DNA of 56,961 nucleotides from Chitinophagales bacterium (GTDB lineage: Bacteria; Bacteroidota; Bacteroidia; Chitinophagales; JADIYW01). Where the stretch lies: contig JAGNZZ010000014.1 in assembly GCA_017984135.1 (NCBI GenBank), forward strand, positions 1-56,961. The letters are read 5' to 3'. The first letter of the stretch is position 1, and every line of letters begins with the position of its first letter. Shown here in pieces: positions 4,022 through 44,745 of the stretch. The notes beneath the pieces were generated by a model. It saw nothing but the letters and a program-made list of their open reading frames with translations. It had not been told where the DNA came from and did no database searches. The position numbers and the translations under genes were made by a program.

Positions 4022-4219
4022 TTAAACTTTTTCAGGATATCCAATTTCCGCTAATTTTTTGCTTATTATTTCCCGTTCAATAGATGCTTCAACGCGTACC
4101 GTTTTGTCTTGCAAATTAATGTCAATGTGCTCAATGCCATCCATCTTCTCTAATGCAGCTTGTATGTTGCTCACACAACCACCACATTTCATATTTTCTA
4201 CTGTTATTTGATAGGTCAT
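4022..4219 (-). CDS. HMA-domain protein (copper-chaperone type)
   Basis: The whole 65-residue protein is one heavy-metal-associated domain with the metal-binding motif MKCGGC (Cys12 and Cys15). Free-standing HMA proteins of this size usually bind Cu(I) and hand it to a P-type ATPase, or act as metal buffers. No ATPase or CopY-type regulator is nearby, so the partner is unknown. A minus-strand TAACTTTG box at 4252..4245 would give a leader of about 19 bases. The ATG at 4219 fits the family's usual N-terminus. Confidence 0.88.
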   Translation of the reverse strand: MTYQITVENMKCGGCVSNIQAALEKMDGIEHIDINLQDKTVRVEASIEREIISKKLAEIGYPEKV

Positions 4220-4310: not shown

Positions 4311-4334
4311 ATAAAAGTACTATAATACTTTTAT
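4311..4334. promoter_or_regulatory. 24-bp perfect palindrome, candidate operator of the stress module
   Basis: The left arm ATAAAAGTA (4311-4319) is the exact reverse complement of the right arm TACTTTTAT (4326-4334), with a six-base spacer CTATAA. Its centre is about 40 bases before the transcription start predicted from the TATATTTG box, so it covers the -33 region. That position suits either a repressor (for example the Rrf2 protein encoded at the end of the cluster) or a class-II type activator. The half-site does not match the classic FNR/DNR core TTGAT. Confidence 0.6.
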
Positions 4335-4348
4335 TTCAAAAATAAGTG

Positions 4349-4356
4349 TATATTTG
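4349..4356 (+). promoter_or_regulatory. -7 promoter box of the hemerythrin/DUF2249 module
   Basis: TATATTTG matches TAnnTTTG. Predicted transcription start is near 4363, giving a leader of about 31 bases before the ATG at 4394. The box contradicts an upstream start at 4346, which would lie inside the promoter. Confidence 0.6.
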
Positions 4357-4393: not shown

Positions 4394-5890
4394 ATGCAAG
4401 CAGTAAAAGAAACAGTTATAAATGTGCAAGAAATTGAGCCACCATTTAGACATTCCACCATTTTCCAAGTGTTTGATGATTTACAAGAAGGAGAAAGTTT
4501 GGTGATACATAACAACCATGATCCGCTTCCGGTTTATCATCAATTAATCAATATGCGTGGGGACGTTTTAAGTTGGGAATATTTACAAGAAGGCCCAGAA
4601 TGGTGGGACATTCGCGTAACTAAAAAACCAAGAGCAGCGCAACAATATTTCAGAACAAAACAAGGGGAAATTGTATTAAATATTCCGGCAATTGAACCTA
4701 AACTTAAACATCCTACTATTTTTAAAGTATTTGATCATATTCAAGAAAATGATTCTTTTGTCATTCATAACGACCATGATCCAAAACCGGTATATTACCA
4801 ATTATTAGGCGAACGCGGCGACACTTTTAAATGGGAATATTTACAAGAAGGACCGGAATGGTGGGATGTGCGCATAACGAAATATGCAGCCACGCAAACA
4901 TCAACAGAAAAAGAAACACCTACAGTAAATAATGAACCTTCACAAACAGCATCATCCAAGGAACGAATCATTGATGTTCCTTCCATTGAGCCTAAATTAA
5001 AACATCCTACCATTTTTCAAGTTTTTGACGAATTAAAGGCTGGAGAAAGTTTAATCATTCATAATGACCACGATCCTAAACCCGTGTATTATCAGCTATT
5101 AGGCGAACGTGGTGATGTATTTATCTGGGAATATTTAGAGCAAGGTCCTGAATGGTGGGACGTTCGTGTGACTAAAAAAGGAGCAAACGACCATCAAACT
5201 ATTGGACAAATTGCCGCAAAAGATTTACGTAAAGCAGAAGTATTTAAAAAATATGGCATTGATTTTTGTTGTGGCGGTAAAAAAACAGTACGCGAAGCGT
5301 GTGCAGAAAAAGGAATAGATGCCACTATCGTGGAACAAGAATTACAACAACCTGTACAAACAATAACATCGGGAAATATGAATTTCGATGAATGGAATGT
5401 AGATTTCTTAGCTGATTATATTGTGAATACACATCATAACTATGTTCGAAAATACCTTCCGGAAATTACAGGTTATGCAGCAAAAGTTGCACAAGTACAC
5501 GGCGACAAACATCCTGAATTACTTAAAATAAATGAATTGGTAAGTGCCATAAACAAAGAGCTTTCCGCTCATTTAGTGGAAGAAGAAACAAGCTTATTTC
5601 CATTAATAAAAGAAATAGTTAAAGCAAAAAATGCCAATTCAACTTGGGAACAAAAAGGAACTTTCAGCACTTTAGTGCATCAAACAGAAGCAGAACACAC
5701 ACAGGTTGGAAAATATGTAGAAGAGATTAGAACCTTGAGCCATCAATATGCCATTCCGGAAGATGCTTGCTCCAGTTATAAATTATTATTTAAGATGTTG
5801 GTGGAATTTGAATCCGATTTATTTGTACACATCCATTTAGAAAATAATATCTTATTTGTGAAAGCAAAAGAATTGGAAAATTCAATCTAA
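4394..5890 (+). CDS. DUF2249 x3 - ScdA_N (DUF542) - hemerythrin fusion, Ric/ScdA-like iron-sulfur repair protein
   Basis: The 498-residue protein contains three near-identical DUF2249 units (about residues 8-77, 93-163 and 192-262), each with IHN-HDP-PVY and GPEWWD motifs. A ScdA_N/DUF542 segment with the Cys-Cys motif GIDFCCGGKK (about 268-320) and a hemerythrin-like four-helix domain (about 335-495) follow. The last carries di-iron-type ligands in THHNY, SAHLVEEE, LVHQTEAEH and HIHLEN. Ric/ScdA/YtfE proteins repair iron-sulfur clusters damaged by nitric oxide or oxidants. DUF2249 is a poorly understood companion domain. The ATG at 4394 is preferred over 4346 because a promoter box lies between them. 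It heads the gene cluster that ends with an Rrf2 regulator. Confidence 0.9.
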   Translation: MQAVKETVINVQEIEPPFRHSTIFQVFDDLQEGESLVIHNNHDPLPVYHQLINMRGDVLSWEYLQEGPEWWDIRVTKKPRAAQQYFRTKQGEIVLNIPAIEPKLKHPTIFKVFDHIQENDSFVIHNDHDPKPVYYQLLGERGDTFKWEYLQEGPEWWDVRITKYAATQTSTEKETPTVNNEPSQTASSKERIIDVPSIEPKLKHPTIFQVFDELKAGESLIIHNDHDPKPVYYQLLGERGDVFIWEYLEQGPEWWDVRVTKKGANDHQTIGQIAAKDLRKAEVFKKYGIDFCCGGKKTVREACAEKGIDATIVEQELQQPVQTITSGNMNFDEWNVDFLADYIVNTHHNYVRKYLPEITGYAAKVAQVHGDKHPELLKINELVSAINKELSAHLVEEETSLFPLIKEIVKAKNANSTWEQKGTFSTLVHQTEAEHTQVGKYVEEIRTLSHQYAIPEDACSSYKLLFKMLVEFESDLFVHIHLENNILFVKAKELENSI

Positions 5891-5896
5891 AAAAAT

Positions 5897-5929
5897 CTTG
5901 CCGTCTTATAATGAAAATAAGACGGCAAG
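5897..5929 (+). terminator. Perfect 13-bp hairpin after the hemerythrin gene
   Basis: CTTGCCGTCTTAT (5897-5909) pairs without mismatch with 5917-5929 around a seven-base loop AATGAAA. An A-run precedes it and only a weak TTGATTT follows. It could end or attenuate transcription, or protect the 3' end of the first message, before the next gene at 6006. Confidence 0.65.
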
Positions 5930-5938
5930 TTGATTTAA

Positions 5939-5958
5939 GCAATGAATGGCAATGAATG
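5939..5958 (+). repeat. 10-bp tandem duplication (2 copies)
   Basis: GCAATGAATG occurs twice back to back just after the hairpin and before the gene at 6006. It is short and may be a chance slippage product; no function is evident. Confidence 0.6.
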
Positions 5959-6005
5959 CCTCGTTTTCAATTACCTTTATAATGGAATGAACTAAACTGT
6001 AAGTC

Positions 6006-6830
6006 ATGCTAATAAATGCACAAACAAAAATAGCGACGCTATTAAAACACCATCCGGACGCTTTAGAAACTATTGTAAAATTAAGTCCTGATTTTAAGAA
6101 GCTACGCAATCCAATTTTACGAAAATTGATGGCTGGCAGAACCAGCATTGCAATGGCTTCAAAAATAGGTGGATGCCAACCAGAAGATTTTTTTAAAGCA
6201 TTAATTCCATTAGGTTTTGAAATAGATGCTCATTCTCAACCCGAAGAAAAACCAAAAATAAACCAACCTACACCAGAATATTTAAAGCAAGTAGCATCCA
6301 ATAAAATTATCAATTTTGATGTGCGTGCAATGTTGGCTGCCGGTGATGATCCATTAAAAGAAATTCAACATAAAATAAAACAACTTCAAACGGATGAAGT
6401 ACTATTAATTGTCAATACATTTGAACCGGTTCCATTAATTAAATTATTGGAAAAACAAGGATTTGAAACGTATGTGAAACAAGTGGATGAGCAAACGATT
6501 GAAACGTATTTTTATACTACAAAAAATAAGCAAGCGCAGTCTATAGAAATTGAAAAAACAACAAACAACGACGCTGCTGATTGGCATCAATTACTTTCTA
6601 AGTTTGAAAATAAATTAGTGGAAATTGATGTGCGACATTTGGAAATGCCCATGCCTATGATGTCCATTTTAGAAGCCCTCGAATCCTTGCCATCCGACAA
6701 AGCATTGTACGTGCATCATAAACGAATTCCCGTATTTTTACTGACAGAATTAAAAGATAGAAATTTTGAATTTAGAATAAAAGAAATCGATGCAACGGAA
6801 GTATTTTTACTAATTTTTAAACAAACATAA
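6006..6830 (+). CDS. DUF1858 - DUF2249 - DUF2249 protein
   Basis: The 274-residue cytoplasmic protein starts with a DUF1858-like helical domain (about residues 3-70, LLKHHPDALETIV ... GGCQPEDFFKAL). This relative of ScdA_N carries only one cysteine. Two divergent DUF2249 units follow (about 103-172, starting NFDVRAML, and 205-272, starting EIDVRHLE). DUF2249 proteins are repeatedly found with hemerythrins, NO reductases and Rrf2 regulators, but their biochemical role is not settled. It is followed after six bases by the membrane protein gene, so the two are surely cotranscribed. Compared with the preceding gene, the DUF2249 copies here have diverged and lost the EWWD motif, which suggests a different role. 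Confidence 0.82.
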   Translation: MLINAQTKIATLLKHHPDALETIVKLSPDFKKLRNPILRKLMAGRTSIAMASKIGGCQPEDFFKALIPLGFEIDAHSQPEEKPKINQPTPEYLKQVASNKIINFDVRAMLAAGDDPLKEIQHKIKQLQTDEVLLIVNTFEPVPLIKLLEKQGFETYVKQVDEQTIETYFYTTKNKQAQSIEIEKTTNNDAADWHQLLSKFENKLVEIDVRHLEMPMPMMSILEALESLPSDKALYVHHKRIPVFLLTELKDRNFEFRIKEIDATEVFLLIFKQT

Positions 6831-6836
6831 AATAGG

Positions 6837-8120
6837 ATGTTAACTTCCATAAGTGGCGATGTGCAGCAAACCACCAGTTATAAAGTGGTACTTCCATTTT
6901 ATATTTATGCAGCCATTTCTTTTTTGTTGGCTTGTAGTTTGCTGTTAATCCATACAGATATAATACATCAGCATTATTTTCATCCACAAACCTTAGCCAT
7001 CACACACATCATGGCATTAGGTTGGGGCACCATGATTATATTAGGTGCATCGCATCAATTATTGCCGGTTTTAATTGAAGGAAAATTAGACAGTTATTTA
7101 TTAGCACATCTTTCTTTCTGGTTTTGTGCCATTGGCATTCCAATGCTCCTCTTCGGGTTTTATACTTTTAACACAGGATGGCCTTTGCAAATCGGAGCAG
7201 TTTTAATAAATATAGGTATCATTTGTTATGTTGTCAATGTGATAGCAAGTGCCCTAAAAAGTAAAAAAATAAATGTACATACTTGGTATATGATGGTTGC
7301 CTCATGTTGGTTGTTTGCTACCACTGGATTAGGTCTGTTGCTCGTGTTTAATTTTTCACAAAGTATCTTACCAAAAGATTCACTATCCTACCTAAGCTTG
7401 CATGCACATTTAGGCTTGTTAGGTTGGTTTTTGTTGCTAGTAATCGGTGTTGGATCTCGTTTGATTCCCATGTTTTTAATTTCAAAATATACCAATACAA
7501 AATTACTTTGGTGGATTTTCGCTTTGGTAAATATTGGATTACTGAGTTTTATAATTATTAAATGCTTAGAGATAGATAAAATGTATTATTATATATCCAT
7601 TGCGTGTATTTTTATTGCCCTATTTTTATTTTTATTTTATTGTAAGAGTGCTTATAAAGTGCGTATTCGTAAAAATGTGGATGAGCAAATGAAAACATCT
7701 TTGCTGTCGGTTGTTCAAATGTTGTTTCCAATAATCGCACTATTAGTTTCATTACTTTGGTTGCCTAATGGAAAAAATTATCAATTAGTGTTGATGTATG
7801 GTTTTTCCTTTTTCTTCGGATGGATAACGGCCATTATATTAGGAATGACCTTTAAAACATTACCTTTTATTGTATGGAATAAAATATATCACCATCGAGC
7901 GCAAGCCGGAAAAACACCAGTTCCAAAAGAATTATTTAGTGAAAGGATTTATGCTATAATGTTGATAGCATATCTATTGGGTTTTATTATTTTTATACTT
8001 GGAATTATTTTTTCGATAAATTGGCTTTTAAAAATTGGCGCACTGTCTCTTTTGATGGCTGCTTTGTTATATGTATTAAATACTGGAATTATTTTGTTAC
8101 ATCAACCACATAAAAAATGA
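6837..8120 (+). CDS. Polytopic membrane protein, heme-copper-oxidase/NnrS-like
   Basis: The 427-residue protein has about twelve hydrophobic segments. Histidines sit at conserved-looking places in membrane helices: HPQTLAITHIMALGWG and GASHQLLP in the N-terminal third, and HAHLGLLGWF followed by GSRLIPMF in the middle. This pattern recalls subunit I of heme-copper oxidases and the NO-related membrane protein NnrS, but the copper-site histidines of a true oxidase are not evident. In Bacteroidota such proteins sit beside DUF2249/hemerythrin genes. A heme-binding role in NO or oxygen defence is inferred from context only. Its stop codon overlaps the ATG of the MIP18 gene (ATGA), indicating translational coupling. 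Confidence 0.75.
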   Translation: MLTSISGDVQQTTSYKVVLPFYIYAAISFLLACSLLLIHTDIIHQHYFHPQTLAITHIMALGWGTMIILGASHQLLPVLIEGKLDSYLLAHLSFWFCAIGIPMLLFGFYTFNTGWPLQIGAVLINIGIICYVVNVIASALKSKKINVHTWYMMVASCWLFATTGLGLLLVFNFSQSILPKDSLSYLSLHAHLGLLGWFLLLVIGVGSRLIPMFLISKYTNTKLLWWIFALVNIGLLSFIIIKCLEIDKMYYYISIACIFIALFLFLFYCKSAYKVRIRKNVDEQMKTSLLSVVQMLFPIIALLVSLLWLPNGKNYQLVLMYGFSFFFGWITAIILGMTFKTLPFIVWNKIYHHRAQAGKTPVPKELFSERIYAIMLIAYLLGFIIFILGIIFSINWLLKIGALSLLMAALLYVLNTGIILLHQPHKK

Positions 8121-8446
8121 ACATAAATATTGAAACAAATGATGCTTTAAAATGCGCACAAGCCTTAAAAGGCTTATATTTTGTAGATGATCCGGAAGTT
8201 GGATTAAATGTAGTAGATTTAGGATTAATTTACACCTTGAATTTCGATGAAGAAGCAAAGAACGTAGATGCCATCATGACCTTAACATCCCAGTTTTGTC
8301 CTATGGGTGAAAGTATCACCAGCAATATCATGCAAACACTAAGCGATGCATTTCCGGAATGGTATATCAACCTTCATTTAACCTTCGAGCCACCTTGGGA
8401 TTCGAGCAAAATATCAGAAAAAGGAAAAGAATTTTTAGGTCAATAA
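8117..8446 (+). CDS. MIP18/DUF59 family metal-sulfur cluster assembly protein
   Basis: The 109-residue protein shows the family hallmarks DDPEVGLNVVDLGLIY near residues 25-40 and a conserved cysteine in SQFCPMGES near residue 60. MIP18/SufT/PaaD-type proteins help to mature iron-sulfur proteins. The start overlaps the preceding stop by four bases, and the stop is four bases before the Rrf2 gene, so it is firmly inside the stress operon. The context suggests that it assists rebuilding of clusters, matching the Ric/ScdA-like repair protein at the head of the module. Confidence 0.88.
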   Translation: MNINIETNDALKCAQALKGLYFVDDPEVGLNVVDLGLIYTLNFDEEAKNVDAIMTLTSQFCPMGESITSNIMQTLSDAFPEWYINLHLTFEPPWDSSKISEKGKEFLGQ

Positions 8447-8450
8447 TCGT

Positions 8451-8876
8451 ATGCTGAGTCTCACTTGTAAAACCGCCATTAAAGCAGTCATTTATCTTTC
8501 CGGAAAGAAAGGTGAAAAGGCTGGAATTAAAGAAATTGCAGAACAAATAAAAGCAAGCGAACATACAGTAGGCAAAACTTTGCAAAGCTTAGTGAAGCAC
8601 CAAATCATCAATAGCTCAAAAGGACCTACAGGTGGTTTTTTTATTGATGAACAACAACAAAATCAAGCCATCTATACTATTGTAGAAACCATTGAAGGAA
8701 AAGGCATTTTTAAAGAATGTGGTTTAGGGTTAAGTAAATGTTCAGAATTGCGACCATGTCCAATTCACAATGAATACAAAGTAGCGCGTGAATTAATTGA
8801 AAAGATTTTTAAAGAGAAAAAAGTAAAAGATTTATGCGCACCAGTTACTAATGGATTAGCGTTTTTAATGGATTAA
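8451..8876 (+). CDS. Rrf2 family transcriptional regulator (NsrR/IscR-like)
   Basis: The 141-residue protein has an N-terminal winged helix (TCKTAIKAVIYLS, EIAEQIKASEHTVGKTLQSL, KGPTGGFF). It then carries three cysteines spaced C-x6-C-x5-C in ECGLGLSKCSELRPC, the position where NsrR and IscR bind a [2Fe-2S] or [4Fe-4S] cluster. It probably senses NO or cluster status and controls the genes ahead of it. The palindrome at 4311-4334 is the obvious candidate target, but this is inference. It is the last gene of the cluster, four bases after the MIP18 gene, and converges on cdsA. Confidence 0.9.
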   Translation: MLSLTCKTAIKAVIYLSGKKGEKAGIKEIAEQIKASEHTVGKTLQSLVKHQIINSSKGPTGGFFIDEQQQNQAIYTIVETIEGKGIFKECGLGLSKCSELRPCPIHNEYKVARELIEKIFKEKKVKDLCAPVTNGLAFLMD

Positions 8877-41082: not shown

Positions 41083-42330
41083 TTACTGGTTGTTGTTGCC
41101 AATAATTTTATTAATAGTACAATTAAATTTTTCTAAATTAGTTTGATAGGTTTTTAGTACATTTTCTATCACTGGAGATTGATAGGCATTTAAATTAAAG
41201 AACTTAATGTCACCATTGTTTCTAAAACAAGATTGATATTGAGCTTTCAAAGAGCCATCTGTATTGCTCATGGCTTTGTTGTAATTATGGTCATATATAA
41301 TATCGGCTGGTCCTTTTGCCATAGCTAAAACTAATTTTCCTAAATCAGAACTTAAATCAGGAATCAATATATTTTTTCGTTTAAAAATATTGTCATGTAT
41401 AAAAATGGAGGTACAATAAGGTGTGTAAATACTATCTGTAAACGGACGACCAGTAGCATAATAACTCACGGCACAAACGCCAATAGTTTTGTTGTTTTCG
41501 AAAGTGTTGTTAAACACAGCCACACTATCATAAGCCATAATAATAATGCCACTTCCCGAAGGAATATCGGAAACATAACTACCAGGTTTGGCAAAGTTTT
41601 TAAAATTATTATCTTTTGCAATATTGTTATATACTCTACAATTTCTTCCATTTTTCATAGGTATTCCTGGTAAATCATAAATCACAAAACCACCGGCATT
41701 GTTGTAGGATAAATTATTATAGACATCTACATTGATACAGTTTTCAATTTCTATACCACATACATTATGATGCGCTGTTACATTTCGAACAGTAACATTG
41801 TACGATTGACCTACATAAACGCCGGCATCGGCACAGTAGGATACTTCAGCATTTTCTATTAAAACATTGGTGCAATTCACCGGATAATAACCATAATTAC
41901 CATTAGCTGAATCGGCACCTGTTGTCCAGGTAGAATTCATCTTTCGAATGATGACATCTCTACATTCTTTCAGCTTTATATTATCACCTTTTGCATCTTG
42001 AACGGTAAAGTTTTCGAGTGTAATATTTTTGCAGTTGGTGATATTGATGCCTTCAGCACCTTCGGTTTGTGCTAAAAAGGAAAGTATCGTTTTGTTTGTT
42101 CCTTTTCCCTTAATGGTAATGTTGTTTTTACCTTCTAACGAAAGCGATTTTTTAAGTTTGTAATTTCCTTCGGGTAATTCAATGGTGCCACCATCTTCCA
42201 CTACAATAAATCTCTCTTGAAATTCTTTTTGAATTTTTTCATCCTCAATAAATTTAATTTTAGAGTGCTTGTTTTTACATGAAGGTAAGACCAAACATAA
42301 AATCAAACTAAATATAAATGTTGATTTCAT
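41083..42330 (-). CDS. Parallel beta-helix lipoprotein (copy A)
   Basis: The 415-residue protein has a lipobox (VLPSC, Cys18). Right-handed parallel beta-helix rungs follow (about residues 45-260): 'N-I/V-T' turns such as GINITNCKNITLENFTVQDAKGDNIKLKEC and GVYVGQSYNVTVRN. It matches the two-gene family TIGR03805 ('parallel beta-helix repeat'), whose members occur with a partner family (TIGR03806) of unknown function. Here the partner is the adjacent diheme cytochrome gene. It is a paralogue of copy B at 43453. It should be anchored in a membrane facing the periplasm or outside. No pectate-lyase catalytic residues are evident. Confidence 0.85.
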   Translation of the reverse strand: MKSTFIFSLILCLVLPSCKNKHSKIKFIEDEKIQKEFQERFIVVEDGGTIELPEGNYKLKKSLSLEGKNNITIKGKGTNKTILSFLAQTEGAEGINITNCKNITLENFTVQDAKGDNIKLKECRDVIIRKMNSTWTTGADSANGNYGYYPVNCTNVLIENAEVSYCADAGVYVGQSYNVTVRNVTAHHNVCGIEIENCINVDVYNNLSYNNAGGFVIYDLPGIPMKNGRNCRVYNNIAKDNNFKNFAKPGSYVSDIPSGSGIIIMAYDSVAVFNNTFENNKTIGVCAVSYYATGRPFTDSIYTPYCTSIFIHDNIFKRKNILIPDLSSDLGKLVLAMAKGPADIIYDHNYNKAMSNTDGSLKAQYQSCFRNNGDIKFFNLNAYQSPVIENVLKTYQTNLEKFNCTINKIIGNNNQ

Positions 42331-42367
42331 ACCATATTTTTTTACTAGATAAAAATGGACATAAATA

Positions 42368-43438
42368 TTATTTCATTTCAGTAATCCATTGACGAATGAG
42401 AGCAACACCTTCTACATGTTGAACACTTCTGCCTAATTCCGGCATGCGTACCTCTGGATCGTTGTCCGTAATGCGATGTACTAAAATACTTTCATCTGGT
42501 TTGCCGGGCACAATATCGTATAAATCATCGCCACTAGCAGCACCAGCAGCCACTGGACTTTTCATCATTCCCCAACTTTCCGGATTTTGTTCCTTCAACA
42601 ATAAAAATAAACCTGAATTATTGGCACTTCCTTCTCTTCGATGGCAATGCGCACAGTTGATTTCCAAATAGGATTTTGCACGATGTTCAATGGTTCCACT
42701 ATTTGGGTCAAATGCATCAGCAATTCTATTTTCAACATTTTCAGCTTTAGAATATCCTGTTAAATAGCCAACTGAGGCCCATTTTTCTAGTTGATTTATA
42801 GTGCCATCTGCAAATTTATAGTCTTTGTTTAAGTATCGAACTTTTGGGCCAATTGGCATTAAAACATTGTTGAGATTATGACAATTTTTACATTCATTTT
42901 TATTCGGAACTGAATAGTTGATATGCATGGCTGTTCCTTTTGTATTTATAAAATCCACTTGTTTAGAATCGCCCACAATATTCAGTTCAGCATCTGTTTG
43001 TTCATTGTTCCAAACATACGCAATGGCATCCCATTTGTCATTCTTTTTTATTAATAAACGTGTTTCAATAATTCTTCTTCCTTTAGATGAATTGCGTTCA
43101 TCATTTTCATAAAAGAAATTTTTTATTAAAACAGTGCCTACTGGGAAATCTAAAGCTTCCTCTTTTACATATTTTGCTGTTGATCCTTCAGGCATCCATA
43201 CAAAACGAGCTTTGTGTGCGTAGTCTGTAAATAAGGCTGTAATTACATCGTAAGGTAAAACTCTATCGTTTGGAATTAAATCTTTTAACGCACCTTTGAA
43301 AAAATGATAGTCGGAAAGTTTTTCAAAGGGTTTGGCTTTAATATCAACAGTTACTGATTGATTGCTGAACTTACATTGATAAAATAGCAAAAAACTAATA
43401 GCACAAATAAGACGTATTAATTTTGTTTTTATTTTCAT
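42368..43438 (-). CDS. Diheme c-type cytochrome lipoprotein (SO2930-like)
   Basis: The 356-residue protein has a lipobox (LFYQC, Cys22) and two heme c attachment sites: CKNCH at residues 183-187 and CAHCH at 262-266, with methionines near each (LMPIGPK, RMPELGR) as likely axial ligands. It fits the TIGR03806/SO2930 family, which occurs beside beta-helix lipoproteins of the TIGR03805 type. It must transfer electrons, but the substrate is unknown. The N-terminal half (about 40-170) is a separate beta-rich domain. It lies between two beta-helix paralogues in one transcription direction, with 14 and 37 bases between genes. Confidence 0.85.
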   Translation of the reverse strand: MKIKTKLIRLICAISFLLFYQCKFSNQSVTVDIKAKPFEKLSDYHFFKGALKDLIPNDRVLPYDVITALFTDYAHKARFVWMPEGSTAKYVKEEALDFPVGTVLIKNFFYENDERNSSKGRRIIETRLLIKKNDKWDAIAYVWNNEQTDAELNIVGDSKQVDFINTKGTAMHINYSVPNKNECKNCHNLNNVLMPIGPKVRYLNKDYKFADGTINQLEKWASVGYLTGYSKAENVENRIADAFDPNSGTIEHRAKSYLEINCAHCHRREGSANNSGLFLLLKEQNPESWGMMKSPVAAGAASGDDLYDIVPGKPDESILVHRITDNDPEVRMPELGRSVQHVEGVALIRQWITEMK

Positions 43439-43452
43439 ATTTTGGTATTCAT

Positions 43453-44745
43453 TTACTTAGCATCTTCAGGCTTTAACCCATTTCCATTGATATTTAAAAT
43501 GGAGCAATCAAATTTAGAAATATCTTCATCTTTATATTTAATAATGTCTTTTGCTCCGGAAGCTTTCCATGCATTCAAATTTCCAAATTTTATATTGCCA
43601 TTGTTTCGGATACAAATGCGTTTTCCTTCTGGTAATTGACCGTTCTTGTTTCTTAATTTTGGGTCAGCAGATCCATCTACTAAAATATCTACGCCACCTT
43701 TAAAAGCAGCGGTTAATAGCTTGCCTAAATCGGTCGACAAATCAGGTACTTTTTGAGTAATAGATAATCCACTTCTATCAAATGTATTGTCATGAATAAA
43801 GATAGAAGTACAATATGGACCATAAGTAGAATCATTTAATTGCTTGCCTGTAATTAAATAACTTACGGTGGCAATACCAACTGTTTTATTGTCTTTGATT
43901 TTATTATTAAAAATAGCGACACTATCGGTTGCCATTACTATCATCCCAGTGCCAGGAGGAATAGCGGAAACAATGCTTCCTGGTTTTCCAAAATTTTGAA
44001 AATTATTATTGAGGCATTCATTATCCCAAACTTTTGCATTTCTGCCATTCGCTTGAAATAGTTTAGGCAAATCAAAGATTAAAATTCCACCAGCGTTATT
44101 TTCAGCTTTATTTTTATAAACATCAGAATTGATGCAATTCTCAATTTCGATCCCAGCAACATTGTGATGTGCATAGCAGTGACGAATGGTTACATTGGTG
44201 GATTGACCAACATAAACACCAGCATCTGCACAATAAGAAACTTCACAATATTCTACCAAAACATTTCTACATTCCACTGGATAATATCCATAATTTCCAT
44301 TGGAAGTATCCGCACCAGTTGTCCAGGTAGAGTTTAAATATCGCAGCGCAACACCATCACAATTTTTTAGTTTAATGTTATCGCCTTTGGCATCTTGTAC
44401 GGTTAATCCTTCCATTGTTACATTTTGACAATTGGTAATGTTGATACCTTCTGCACCTTCATTTTGTCCTAAAAATGATAAAATAGTTTTTTGTGTTCCG
44501 GCTCCTTTTATCGTAACATTTTTTTTGCCTTCCATTGAGAGCGTTTTTTTAAGTAGATATTTTCCAGCAGGAAATTCAACTGTACCACCATCTTCCACTA
44601 AAATTAGTTTTTCTTGAAATTCTTTTTCTATTTTTTCATCATAAGTAAATCCTTTCGTGTCGCCAGCTTTTTTAGTCTCATTTTTACATGATTGAAAAAG
44701 GCAAAACGTAATCAATAAAAATGAAAATAGAATAGAATTTCGCAT
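43453..44745 (-). CDS. Parallel beta-helix lipoprotein (copy B)
   Basis: The 430-residue protein has a lipobox (LFQSC, Cys20) and the same beta-helix architecture as copy A, with long stretches shared almost exactly (GGT-E-P-G-Y-LKK-LS-EGK, NGNYGYYPV, SYCADAGVYVGQS). It is the first gene of the three-gene cluster, 14 bases before the cytochrome. The C-terminal part (about 300-430) differs more from copy A than the helix core. The family function is unknown; sugar or cell-surface polymer binding is possible from the fold but unproven. Confidence 0.85.
   Translation of the reverse strand: MRNSILFSFLLITFCLFQSCKNETKKAGDTKGFTYDEKIEKEFQEKLILVEDGGTVEFPAGKYLLKKTLSMEGKKNVTIKGAGTQKTILSFLGQNEGAEGINITNCQNVTMEGLTVQDAKGDNIKLKNCDGVALRYLNSTWTTGADTSNGNYGYYPVECRNVLVEYCEVSYCADAGVYVGQSTNVTIRHCYAHHNVAGIEIENCINSDVYKNKAENNAGGILIFDLPKLFQANGRNAKVWDNECLNNNFQNFGKPGSIVSAIPPGTGMIVMATDSVAIFNNKIKDNKTVGIATVSYLITGKQLNDSTYGPYCTSIFIHDNTFDRSGLSITQKVPDLSTDLGKLLTAAFKGGVDILVDGSADPKLRNKNGQLPEGKRICIRNNGNIKFGNLNAWKASGAKDIIKYKDEDISKFDCSILNINGNGLKPEDAK

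Follow-up and report, generated by a model that had tools for sequence, protein, structure and literature searches.

Many bacteria produce NO in their own respiratory chain, and the survival of their Fe-S and haem enzymes needs explaining. Five adjacent genes on a 56,961-nucleotide stretch of contig DNA from a Chitinophagales bacterium (the window, the whole stretch of DNA analysed) raise the question of whether they form one unit and what such a unit does for the cell.

Gene organisation of the locus

The five genes had been described in a sequence-only reading as a compact nitrosative and Fe-S stress module. An ORF check of 4394-8876 confirmed that the five ORFs are adjacent, and their order, strand and spacing all match that description. 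The genes and the elements around them are as follows.

4311..4334, no strand: candidate Rrf2 operator, ATAAAAGTA-CTATAA-TACTTTTAT, with perfect 9-bp arms and a 6-bp spacer
4349..4356, + strand: -7 promoter box of the Bacteroidota type, TATATTTG (TAnnTTTG)
4394..5890, + strand: gene A, 498 aa, a fusion of three DUF2249 domains with a complete RIC (ScdA_N and hemerythrin)
5897..5929, + strand: 13-bp stem-loop between A and B, a terminator-like or processing hairpin
6006..6830, + strand: gene B, 274 aa, DUF1858 and two diverged TusA-like DUF2249 domains (DrpB architecture)
6837..8120, + strand: gene C, 427 aa, haem-copper-oxidase homologue with approximately 12 TM; H57 and H189 invariant
8117..8446, + strand: gene D, 109 aa, DUF59/FeS_assembly_P protein
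8451..8876, + strand: gene E, 141 aa, Rrf2 regulator

The intergenic distances were 115 nt between A and B, 6 nt between B and C and 4 nt between D and E, and C and D overlapped by 4 nt. Since the A-B gap contains the 13-bp hairpin, the expression level of A may differ from that of B to E. Strong hairpins, unrelated in sequence, were also found in the A-B gaps of many other loci, and TAnnTTTG was absent from 21 of 23 such gaps of 50-300 nt. A divergent HMA/CopZ gene (4022-4219) was ruled out as a member of the unit because it was present in no other locus.

Conservation and denitrification context

Conserved co-occurrence in other genomes, on which the earlier proposal had been staked, was present. 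B and C shared the same 11 of 61 relatives and were adjacent in all 11, and the order B-C-D was nearly invariant across 59 loci, with B and C within 60 nt of each other in 57 of 58 loci and C and D in 56 of 58. The B-C co-occurrence and the kept order exclude chance clustering of the five genes. The B-C-D core was also found in Thermus, Rhizobium and Mesorhizobium and is thus much wider than the unit originally described.

Genes for nos or nor adjoined 8 of the 11 Flavobacteriia-type loci. Homologous cores lay in the nir-nor (nirK/nor) and nos (nosRZ) regions of rhizobial plasmids, and on Thermus plasmids a homologous core, the known DrpA/DrpB, followed narGHJI. Among 395 genomes of the phylum, NosZ, NirK or cNOR was found in all 23 that encode a near-full-length B and in 142 of the other 372 (Fisher p = 7e-10, without phylogeny correction). 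The host genome encodes NirK and two cNorCB, one of them beside a stand-alone RIC, while a search of it for NosZ found none. From the stress-module reading, a single conserved unit tied to nitrogen-oxide metabolism is retained, but a generic stress role is not, the strongest link being to denitrification through the nos, nor, nir and nar neighbourhoods. The five genes make up a genuine operon, conserved widely and found alongside nitrite, NO or N2O respiration in several bacterial phyla.

DUF2249 domains and the products of genes A and B

A whole-genome search returned five DUF2249 domains, every one within 4394-8876, and Pfam placed three in A and two in B, in agreement with the number first proposed. 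The suspicion of two domain versions proved correct: in A all three domains are alike (63-72% identity), those of B are diverged (24% to each other), and the identity between A and B domains is low (10-23%).

Gene A matched three DUF2249 (225 bits for the whole protein), ScdA_N (81 bits) and Hemerythrin (57 bits) in Pfam and passed TIGR03652 FeS_repair_RIC (239 bits against a cut-off of 204.7). The alignment with YtfE spanned the RIC length of A, the His/Glu positions of the di-iron ligands were retained, and the N-terminal Cys pair of the RIC part was found in CCGG (residues 292-295). Gene A carries a full-length RIC, a predicted Fe-S repair protein. It shares with YtfE/ScdA the complete ScdA_N and hemerythrin core, the CC motif and the di-iron ligand positions, but differs in its three fused DUF2249 repeats and in its place in an operon with other factors. 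The A-type proteins at other loci fell into size classes consistent with 0 to 5 DUF2249 repeats, the numbers being derived from protein length, as a motif count proved too strict. The full-length RIC core was missing from some members (Sphingobacterium-type loci), so the unit does not depend on RIC.

Gene B matched DUF1858 (43 bits) and two DUF2249 (81 bits) in the order that defines DrpB, and in tblastn was 33% identical, over 99% of its length, to DUF2249 proteins of Thermus nar regions and plasmids. DrpA and DrpB of Thermus thermophilus are a single-DUF2249 protein and a DUF1858-2xDUF2249 protein encoded in one operon; when both were lost, nitrate reductase protein was still made, but its activity fell to about one tenth (PMC6282519). 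This activity loss fits a maturation or maintenance role, whereas the authors interpret DrpA/DrpB as nitrate sensors and not as repair factors (PMC6282519). In Thermus strain JL-18, a gene for a 12-TM homologue of C and one for a DUF59 protein lie downstream of a DrpA/DrpB-type pair. These downstream genes are not counted as part of the Drp system in the available text (PMC6282519). The present unit differs from DrpA/DrpB in the fusion of three DUF2249 to RIC and in having its own Rrf2 regulator and candidate operator, and nar genes do not adjoin it.

The sensor interpretation could be extended to this locus, with the DUF2249 proteins detecting a nitrogen oxide, C acting as a membrane haem sensor and respiration genes being adjusted. 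The loss of nitrate dependence of nar expression in Thermus drp mutants (PMC6282519), the homology of B to DrpB in architecture and identity, and a protoglobin gene within the same Thermus cluster are consistent with such signalling. We nevertheless regard it as unlikely, since the drpAB double mutant is reported to have lost enzyme activity too, with normal protein (PMC6282519), the unit has a DNA-binding regulator of its own, and DUF59 and RIC are left unexplained. Moreover, A fuses DUF2249 to a cytoplasmic-type RIC, and an export signal was not evident in the protein; this arrangement is ill-suited to a periplasmic sensor and calls the periplasmic nitrate-sensor reading of DUF2249 into question.

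An association of DUF2249 genes with denitrification, and with proteins resembling hemerythrin and haem-copper oxidases, was reported earlier (PMC11218638, with reference to Pei et al. 2014). In Haloferax mediterranei such DUF2249 genes lie near nirK/nor and nar/nos, and all four are denitrification-induced (PMC11218638). These genes are archaeal, and a RIC fusion, Rrf2 or such an operator is not described for them in the available part of that paper (PMC11218638). The sequence-only reading had known of no description of the complete unit; the novelty of this unit has to be narrowed, as the A and B domains have counterparts in DrpA/DrpB (PMC6282519). The parts are known, and the complete self-regulated unit with its candidate operator appears to be undescribed, no earlier description having been found in the literature searched.

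Products of genes C and D

The product of gene C had been called histidine-rich and heme-type. Hydropathy indicated approximately 12 TM, and the Pfam COX1 score (31.8 bits) was slightly under the cut-off of 34.8. In hhalign, gene C aligned over its full length with 12-TM proteins of Thermus (4e-31) and Rhizobium (1.7e-30), and its 4-TM units gave matches of about 2e-8 to NorB and CcoN. No Pfam family matched the members from Rhizobium and Thermus, and a PDB profile search with the gene C protein gave no lead. NnrS was excluded as an identity for C (hhalign probability 0.1%). The conserved His of C are only H57 (TM2) and H189 (TM6), plus H191 (TM6) in Bacteroidota, and the Thermus and Rhizobium homologues retain only the equivalents of the first two. 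Functionally, two to three conserved His do not make the protein histidine-rich. The heme-type label also needs qualifying, as the conserved His suffice for at most one haem, the binding of which we infer.

Haem-copper oxidase homology (HCOH) proteins, attributed to Pei et al. 2014, are reportedly 12-TM proteins built of three 4-TM oxidase/NOR-related units, with two conserved His suited to one haem and with denitrification-linked neighbourhoods. Gene C has the 4-TM units and the two conserved His of this description and is a possible HCOH member.

The homology to haem-copper oxidase/NOR units and the nor/nos neighbourhood might suggest that C is itself an NO-removing, NO reductase-like enzyme and that the other genes serve it. 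However, the ligand set of such enzymes comprises six His, in TM2, TM6, TM7 (two) and TM10 (two), and in C the TM7 and TM10 ligands are missing, with no conserved His in TM10. C is therefore not a normal oxidase or NOR, and a working enzyme of either kind is excluded by the absence of the active-site ligands. The Thermus and Rhizobium homologues have kept no more than the first two His, and the genome already encodes two true cNORs, making NO removal by C highly improbable.

Gene D reached the general cut-off of Pfam FeS_assembly_P (31 bits) and matched the PDB entry TTHB138 (E=7e-15). D25-P-E, C61-P and P92-x-W94 were invariant in the alignment of homologues. The scores were under both equivalog cut-offs for SufT/SUF-associated DUF59 proteins (64.0 against 202.6 bits and 62.1 against 143.4 bits).

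The Rrf2 regulator and its candidate operator

Gene E matched Pfam Rrf2 (74 bits), and C90, C97, C103 and H106 were invariant in 45 sequences, giving E the three Cys of Fe-S-type Rrf2 proteins. Together with the candidate operator that precedes the unit, these residues bear out the proposal that the unit has its own Rrf2 regulator. E shares with NsrR/IscR the winged helix, C-x6-C-x5-C followed by His, and a palindromic candidate operator placed at the promoter of an operon that includes RIC. The cluster ligands of IscR are (Cys)3(His), and the candidate operator is unlike the commonly described NsrR sites. E differs from both regulators in its apparently one-operon regulon and in scoring below every NCBIfam equivalog cut-off (NsrR, 18.0 against 182 bits; IscR, 33.7 against 207.6 bits). 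These scores rule out NsrR or IscR proper, and the signal could thus be NO, Fe-S status, iron or oxygen. In several species, ric is repressed by NsrR (PMC9268430).

Of 48 Rrf2-type loci, 42 had the palindrome, counted as present at <=1 mismatch in AAAAGTA-N6-TACTTTT, ahead of their first gene, and none of the 11 Flavobacteriia-type/nos-type loci did. Shuffled sequence totalling 3.1 Mb gave 3 matches at <=1 mismatch, none of them perfect. TAnnTTTG lay shortly downstream of 40 of the 42 palindromes (36 at 14-17 nt), against a background of 2%. In the 2.63-Mb genome, the perfect palindrome occurs as a single copy, before this operon. A larger Rrf2 regulon was rejected on the basis of this one perfect operator and of the <=2-mismatch pattern, which was rarer in the genome than its reversed control. 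Judged from the sequence, the regulon of E is apparently one operon.

A general Fe-S biogenesis and repair operon, in which an IscR-like Rrf2 measures Fe-S status and denitrification is one of several stresses, would accord with the (Cys)3(His) spacing in E, with D as a SUF-associated-type DUF59 protein, and with the SUF regulator model as the second-best NCBIfam match of E. The operator found perfect only before this operon speaks against it, as do the denitrification genes in every sampled genome with a near-full-length B and the location of the Flavobacteriia, Rhizobium and Thermus versions within nos, nor, nir or nar clusters. Such a general role is thus quite unlikely.

Proposed role of the unit

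The account to which we lean, and which we consider somewhat probable, is that the unit is an operon accessory to nitrogen-oxide respiration that controls its own expression, being repressed by E until E loses its cluster, and that its products maintain metal centres. E would hold an Fe-S cluster by C90/C97/C103, perhaps with H106, and would occupy the 4311-4334 palindrome beside the -7 box, repressing the single promoter. NO released by the NirK of the same cell, or a general loss of Fe-S, would destroy this cluster, and E without it would leave the DNA, allowing transcription of the operon. A would supply the di-iron site of RIC tethered to DUF2249 domains, D would aid the rebuilding of Fe-S clusters, and B, with its TusA-like DUF2249 domains, would act as a soluble partner. 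C may hold at most one His-ligated haem near the periplasmic side and would most likely bind NO or pass electrons or signals, rather than reduce NO. Metal-containing enzymes are probably kept working by the unit during the cell's NO production. The promoter with one 24-bp site provides a defined candidate operator of the unit, and DUF2249, DUF1858 and an unnamed 12-TM family gain a shared context in a compact unit that extends from Bacteroidota to Thermus and rhizobia.

A wider proposal can be offered only tentatively: the B-C-D core with A-type DUF2249 may be a membrane-associated system, present across bacteria, by which the Fe-S and haem enzymes needed for nitrogen-oxide respiration are maintained or matured while the cell itself produces NO. 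In Bacteroidota, this system may have acquired an Rrf2 switch of its own, together with an operator for that switch. If this is true, the B-C-D core with A-type DUF2249 would fill a gap among the accessory components of denitrification. The Flavobacteriia-type versions were often found beside Crp-family genes.

Organisation and conservation of the unit

The positions that the sequence-only reading had assigned to the five genes were confirmed, and all of them lie on one strand. The features of the region are as follows (domains from Pfam).

Gene A, 4394-5890, same strand as B-E: three DUF2249, ScdA_N and hemerythrin
Gene B, 6006-6830, same strand as A and C-E: DUF1858 and two DUF2249
Gene C, 6837-8120, same strand as the other four: COX1, below threshold
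Gene D, 8117-8446, same strand as the other four: FeS_assembly_P
Gene E, 8451-8876, same strand as A-D: Rrf2
Candidate operator, 4311-4334, upstream of the unit: ATAAAAGTA-N6-TACTTTTAT
13-bp hairpin, 5897-5929, between A and B: strong stem

The whole host genome (2.63 Mb, 71 contigs) contains five DUF2249 domains, all within A and B. The A-type copies are 63-72% alike among themselves. Similarity is 24% between the two B-type copies and 10-23% between B-type and A-type copies; the second DUF2249 of B, as well as a rhizobial homologue, weakly matched TusA in Pfam. Gene A scored above the cut-off for RIC and retains the YtfE ligand positions, and D, a relative of the solved DUF59 protein TTHB138, retains the DPE and CP motifs.

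The proposal that the genes form a unit was borne out by neighbourhood comparison. Used as separate queries, B and C each had full-length matches in 11 of 61 relatives; the two sets of genomes coincide, and the two genes adjoin in all 11. The gene order was kept across 59 distinct loci (35 records from one scan of genome contigs, regions of relatives and the window), with C following B within 60 nt in 57/58 loci, D following C in 56/58 and E following D in 43/49. In most loci, a gene for a RIC or DUF2249 protein lies upstream of B-C-D, and the RIC-protein lengths increase stepwise (about 240, 320, 405, 490, 570 and 660 aa), consistent with 0 to 5 DUF2249 repeats ahead of the RIC core. The full RIC core is absent from three loci of the Sphingobacterium, Arachidicoccus and Parapedobacter types (L080, L081 and L096), which have an extra DUF2249 protein (~250 aa) and a hemerythrin-like protein (~170 aa) 3' of the Rrf2 gene.

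Membrane protein encoded by gene C

Hydropathy indicated about 12 TM helices in C, and profile alignment identified the 12-TM proteins of Thermus (E = 4e-31) and Rhizobium (E = 1.7e-30), which matched no Pfam family, as full-length homologues. H57 and H189 are invariant and H191 is 98% conserved in Bacteroidota; of these three, the Thermus and Rhizobium proteins have H57 and H189 only, as read from the profile alignments. TM2, TM6 and TM10 are equivalent positions in the three-fold pattern of oxidases, and C has histidines on TM2 and TM6 and none on TM10. One haem may possibly be held between units 1 and 2. An oxidase-type binuclear centre was excluded, since TM10 lacks histidine and the conserved histidines are only H57 and H189 (plus H191). 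Sequence-based searches detected no solved structure related to C.

Regulation

The 4311-4334 palindrome was first noticed across many loci and then counted with a fixed pattern, which occurred ahead of the first gene in 42 of 48 Rrf2-type loci and in 0 of 11 Flavobacteriia-type/nos-type loci (L104-L114), Flavobacteriia-type being a label for gene arrangement. Shuffled sequence (3.1 Mb) yielded three near-matches and no perfect one, and the host genome contains a single perfect site. TAnnTTTG, the Bacteroidota promoter box, lies downstream of the palindrome in 40/42 loci, at 14-17 nt in 36 (background 2%), so that the palindrome adjoins the upstream promoter element or partly covers it, where sites for repression are typically placed. 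Residues C90, C97, C103 and H106 of E are invariant in 45 sequences, and they are spaced as an Fe-S Rrf2 protein would be expected to have them; E missed every cut-off of the NCBIfam equivalog models. From the co-occurrence, we infer that E binds this palindrome. In some Flavobacteriia-type loci, a TGACTTAAGTCA palindrome resembling an FNR/Crp box is found at about -80; a regulator swap there is suggested tentatively, because a wider scan for TTGAY-N4-RTCAA boxes gave support in two loci only.

Many loci have a strong hairpin in the A-B gap, with sequences unrelated to one another, and a second promoter box was absent from 21 of the 23 A-B gaps searched. These observations suggest a single transcript in which A is more abundant than B-E.

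Denitrification context and proposed role

The individual parts of the unit and the link of DUF2249 with denitrification are known (PMC6282519, PMC11218638; reportedly also Pei et al. 2014). In the open-licence literature, outside which most subscription journals lie, no earlier description was found of the unit as a whole, of its operator or of this Rrf2 subgroup.

With the neighbours nosZ, nosL, norB and Crp identified from sequence, the core adjoins nosZ/nosL in five Flavobacteriia-type loci (L104, L105, L106, L108 and L111) and norB in three (L109, L110 and L113), and such loci often include, in addition, a separate RIC, a gene of the Crp family and an oxidase-like ORF with 4 TM helices; NosZ positions were confirmed in several of these genomes. 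Rhizobium plasmids carry DUF2249, 12-TM, DUF2249 and DUF59 genes, in that order, flanked by nor genes and nirK, and a Mesorhizobium plasmid has this set near nosR/nosZ. The order on a Thermus plasmid is narGHJI, transporter, drpA, drpB, 4-TM ORF, protoglobin, 12-TM protein and DUF59. On this plasmid, from Thermus JL-18, the 4-TM oxidase-like ORF and the protoglobin (L116:9798-11074) separate drpB from the 12-TM gene.

B was present at nearly full length in 23 of the 395 phylum genomes covered (the DUF1858 end being absent in two). NosZ, NirK or cNOR was present in all 23 as compared to 142 of the 372 others (p = 7e-10), and NosZ alone in 20 as compared to 108 (p = 4e-8), both p-values being optimistic since the genomes are mutually related. 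Neither NirK alone nor cNOR alone was significantly associated with B (23 vs 372 genomes).

A-E is best read as an autoregulated, Fe-S-switched accessory operon of denitrification context. The Fe-S switch would control its own operon, and the products would keep Fe-S and haem enzymes active during the cell's own NO production; in this reading, the NO signal, the haem of C and the role of DUF2249 are all putative. The strongest outside support for such maintenance of enzymes is that Thermus drpAB double mutants produce nitrate reductase with ca. 1/10 of the normal activity (PMC6282519). The main rival is the sensing role for DUF2249 proteins proposed by the authors of that study; the DUF2249-RIC fusion speaks against a purely periplasmic sensor.

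Nitrogen-oxide genes of the host

The host genome encodes NirK and two cNOR norCB pairs, one accompanied by norQ/norD-like genes and the second, on the 3.3-kb genome contig C24 (locus L123), lying between a cytochrome c in front and a stand-alone RIC behind; no NosZ match exceeded the cut-off. From this gene content, the host would be expected to form NO and to convert nitrite to N2O. Two beta-helix proteins lie either side of a cytochrome-c-like protein at 41083-44745 of the window; the one at 43453-44745 matches NosD, and by eye the second closely resembles it. This genome, which lacks NosZ, has NosD-like genes. A tandem of four Crp/Fnr-like regulators (L134:2134-4863) lies a few kb upstream of nirK.
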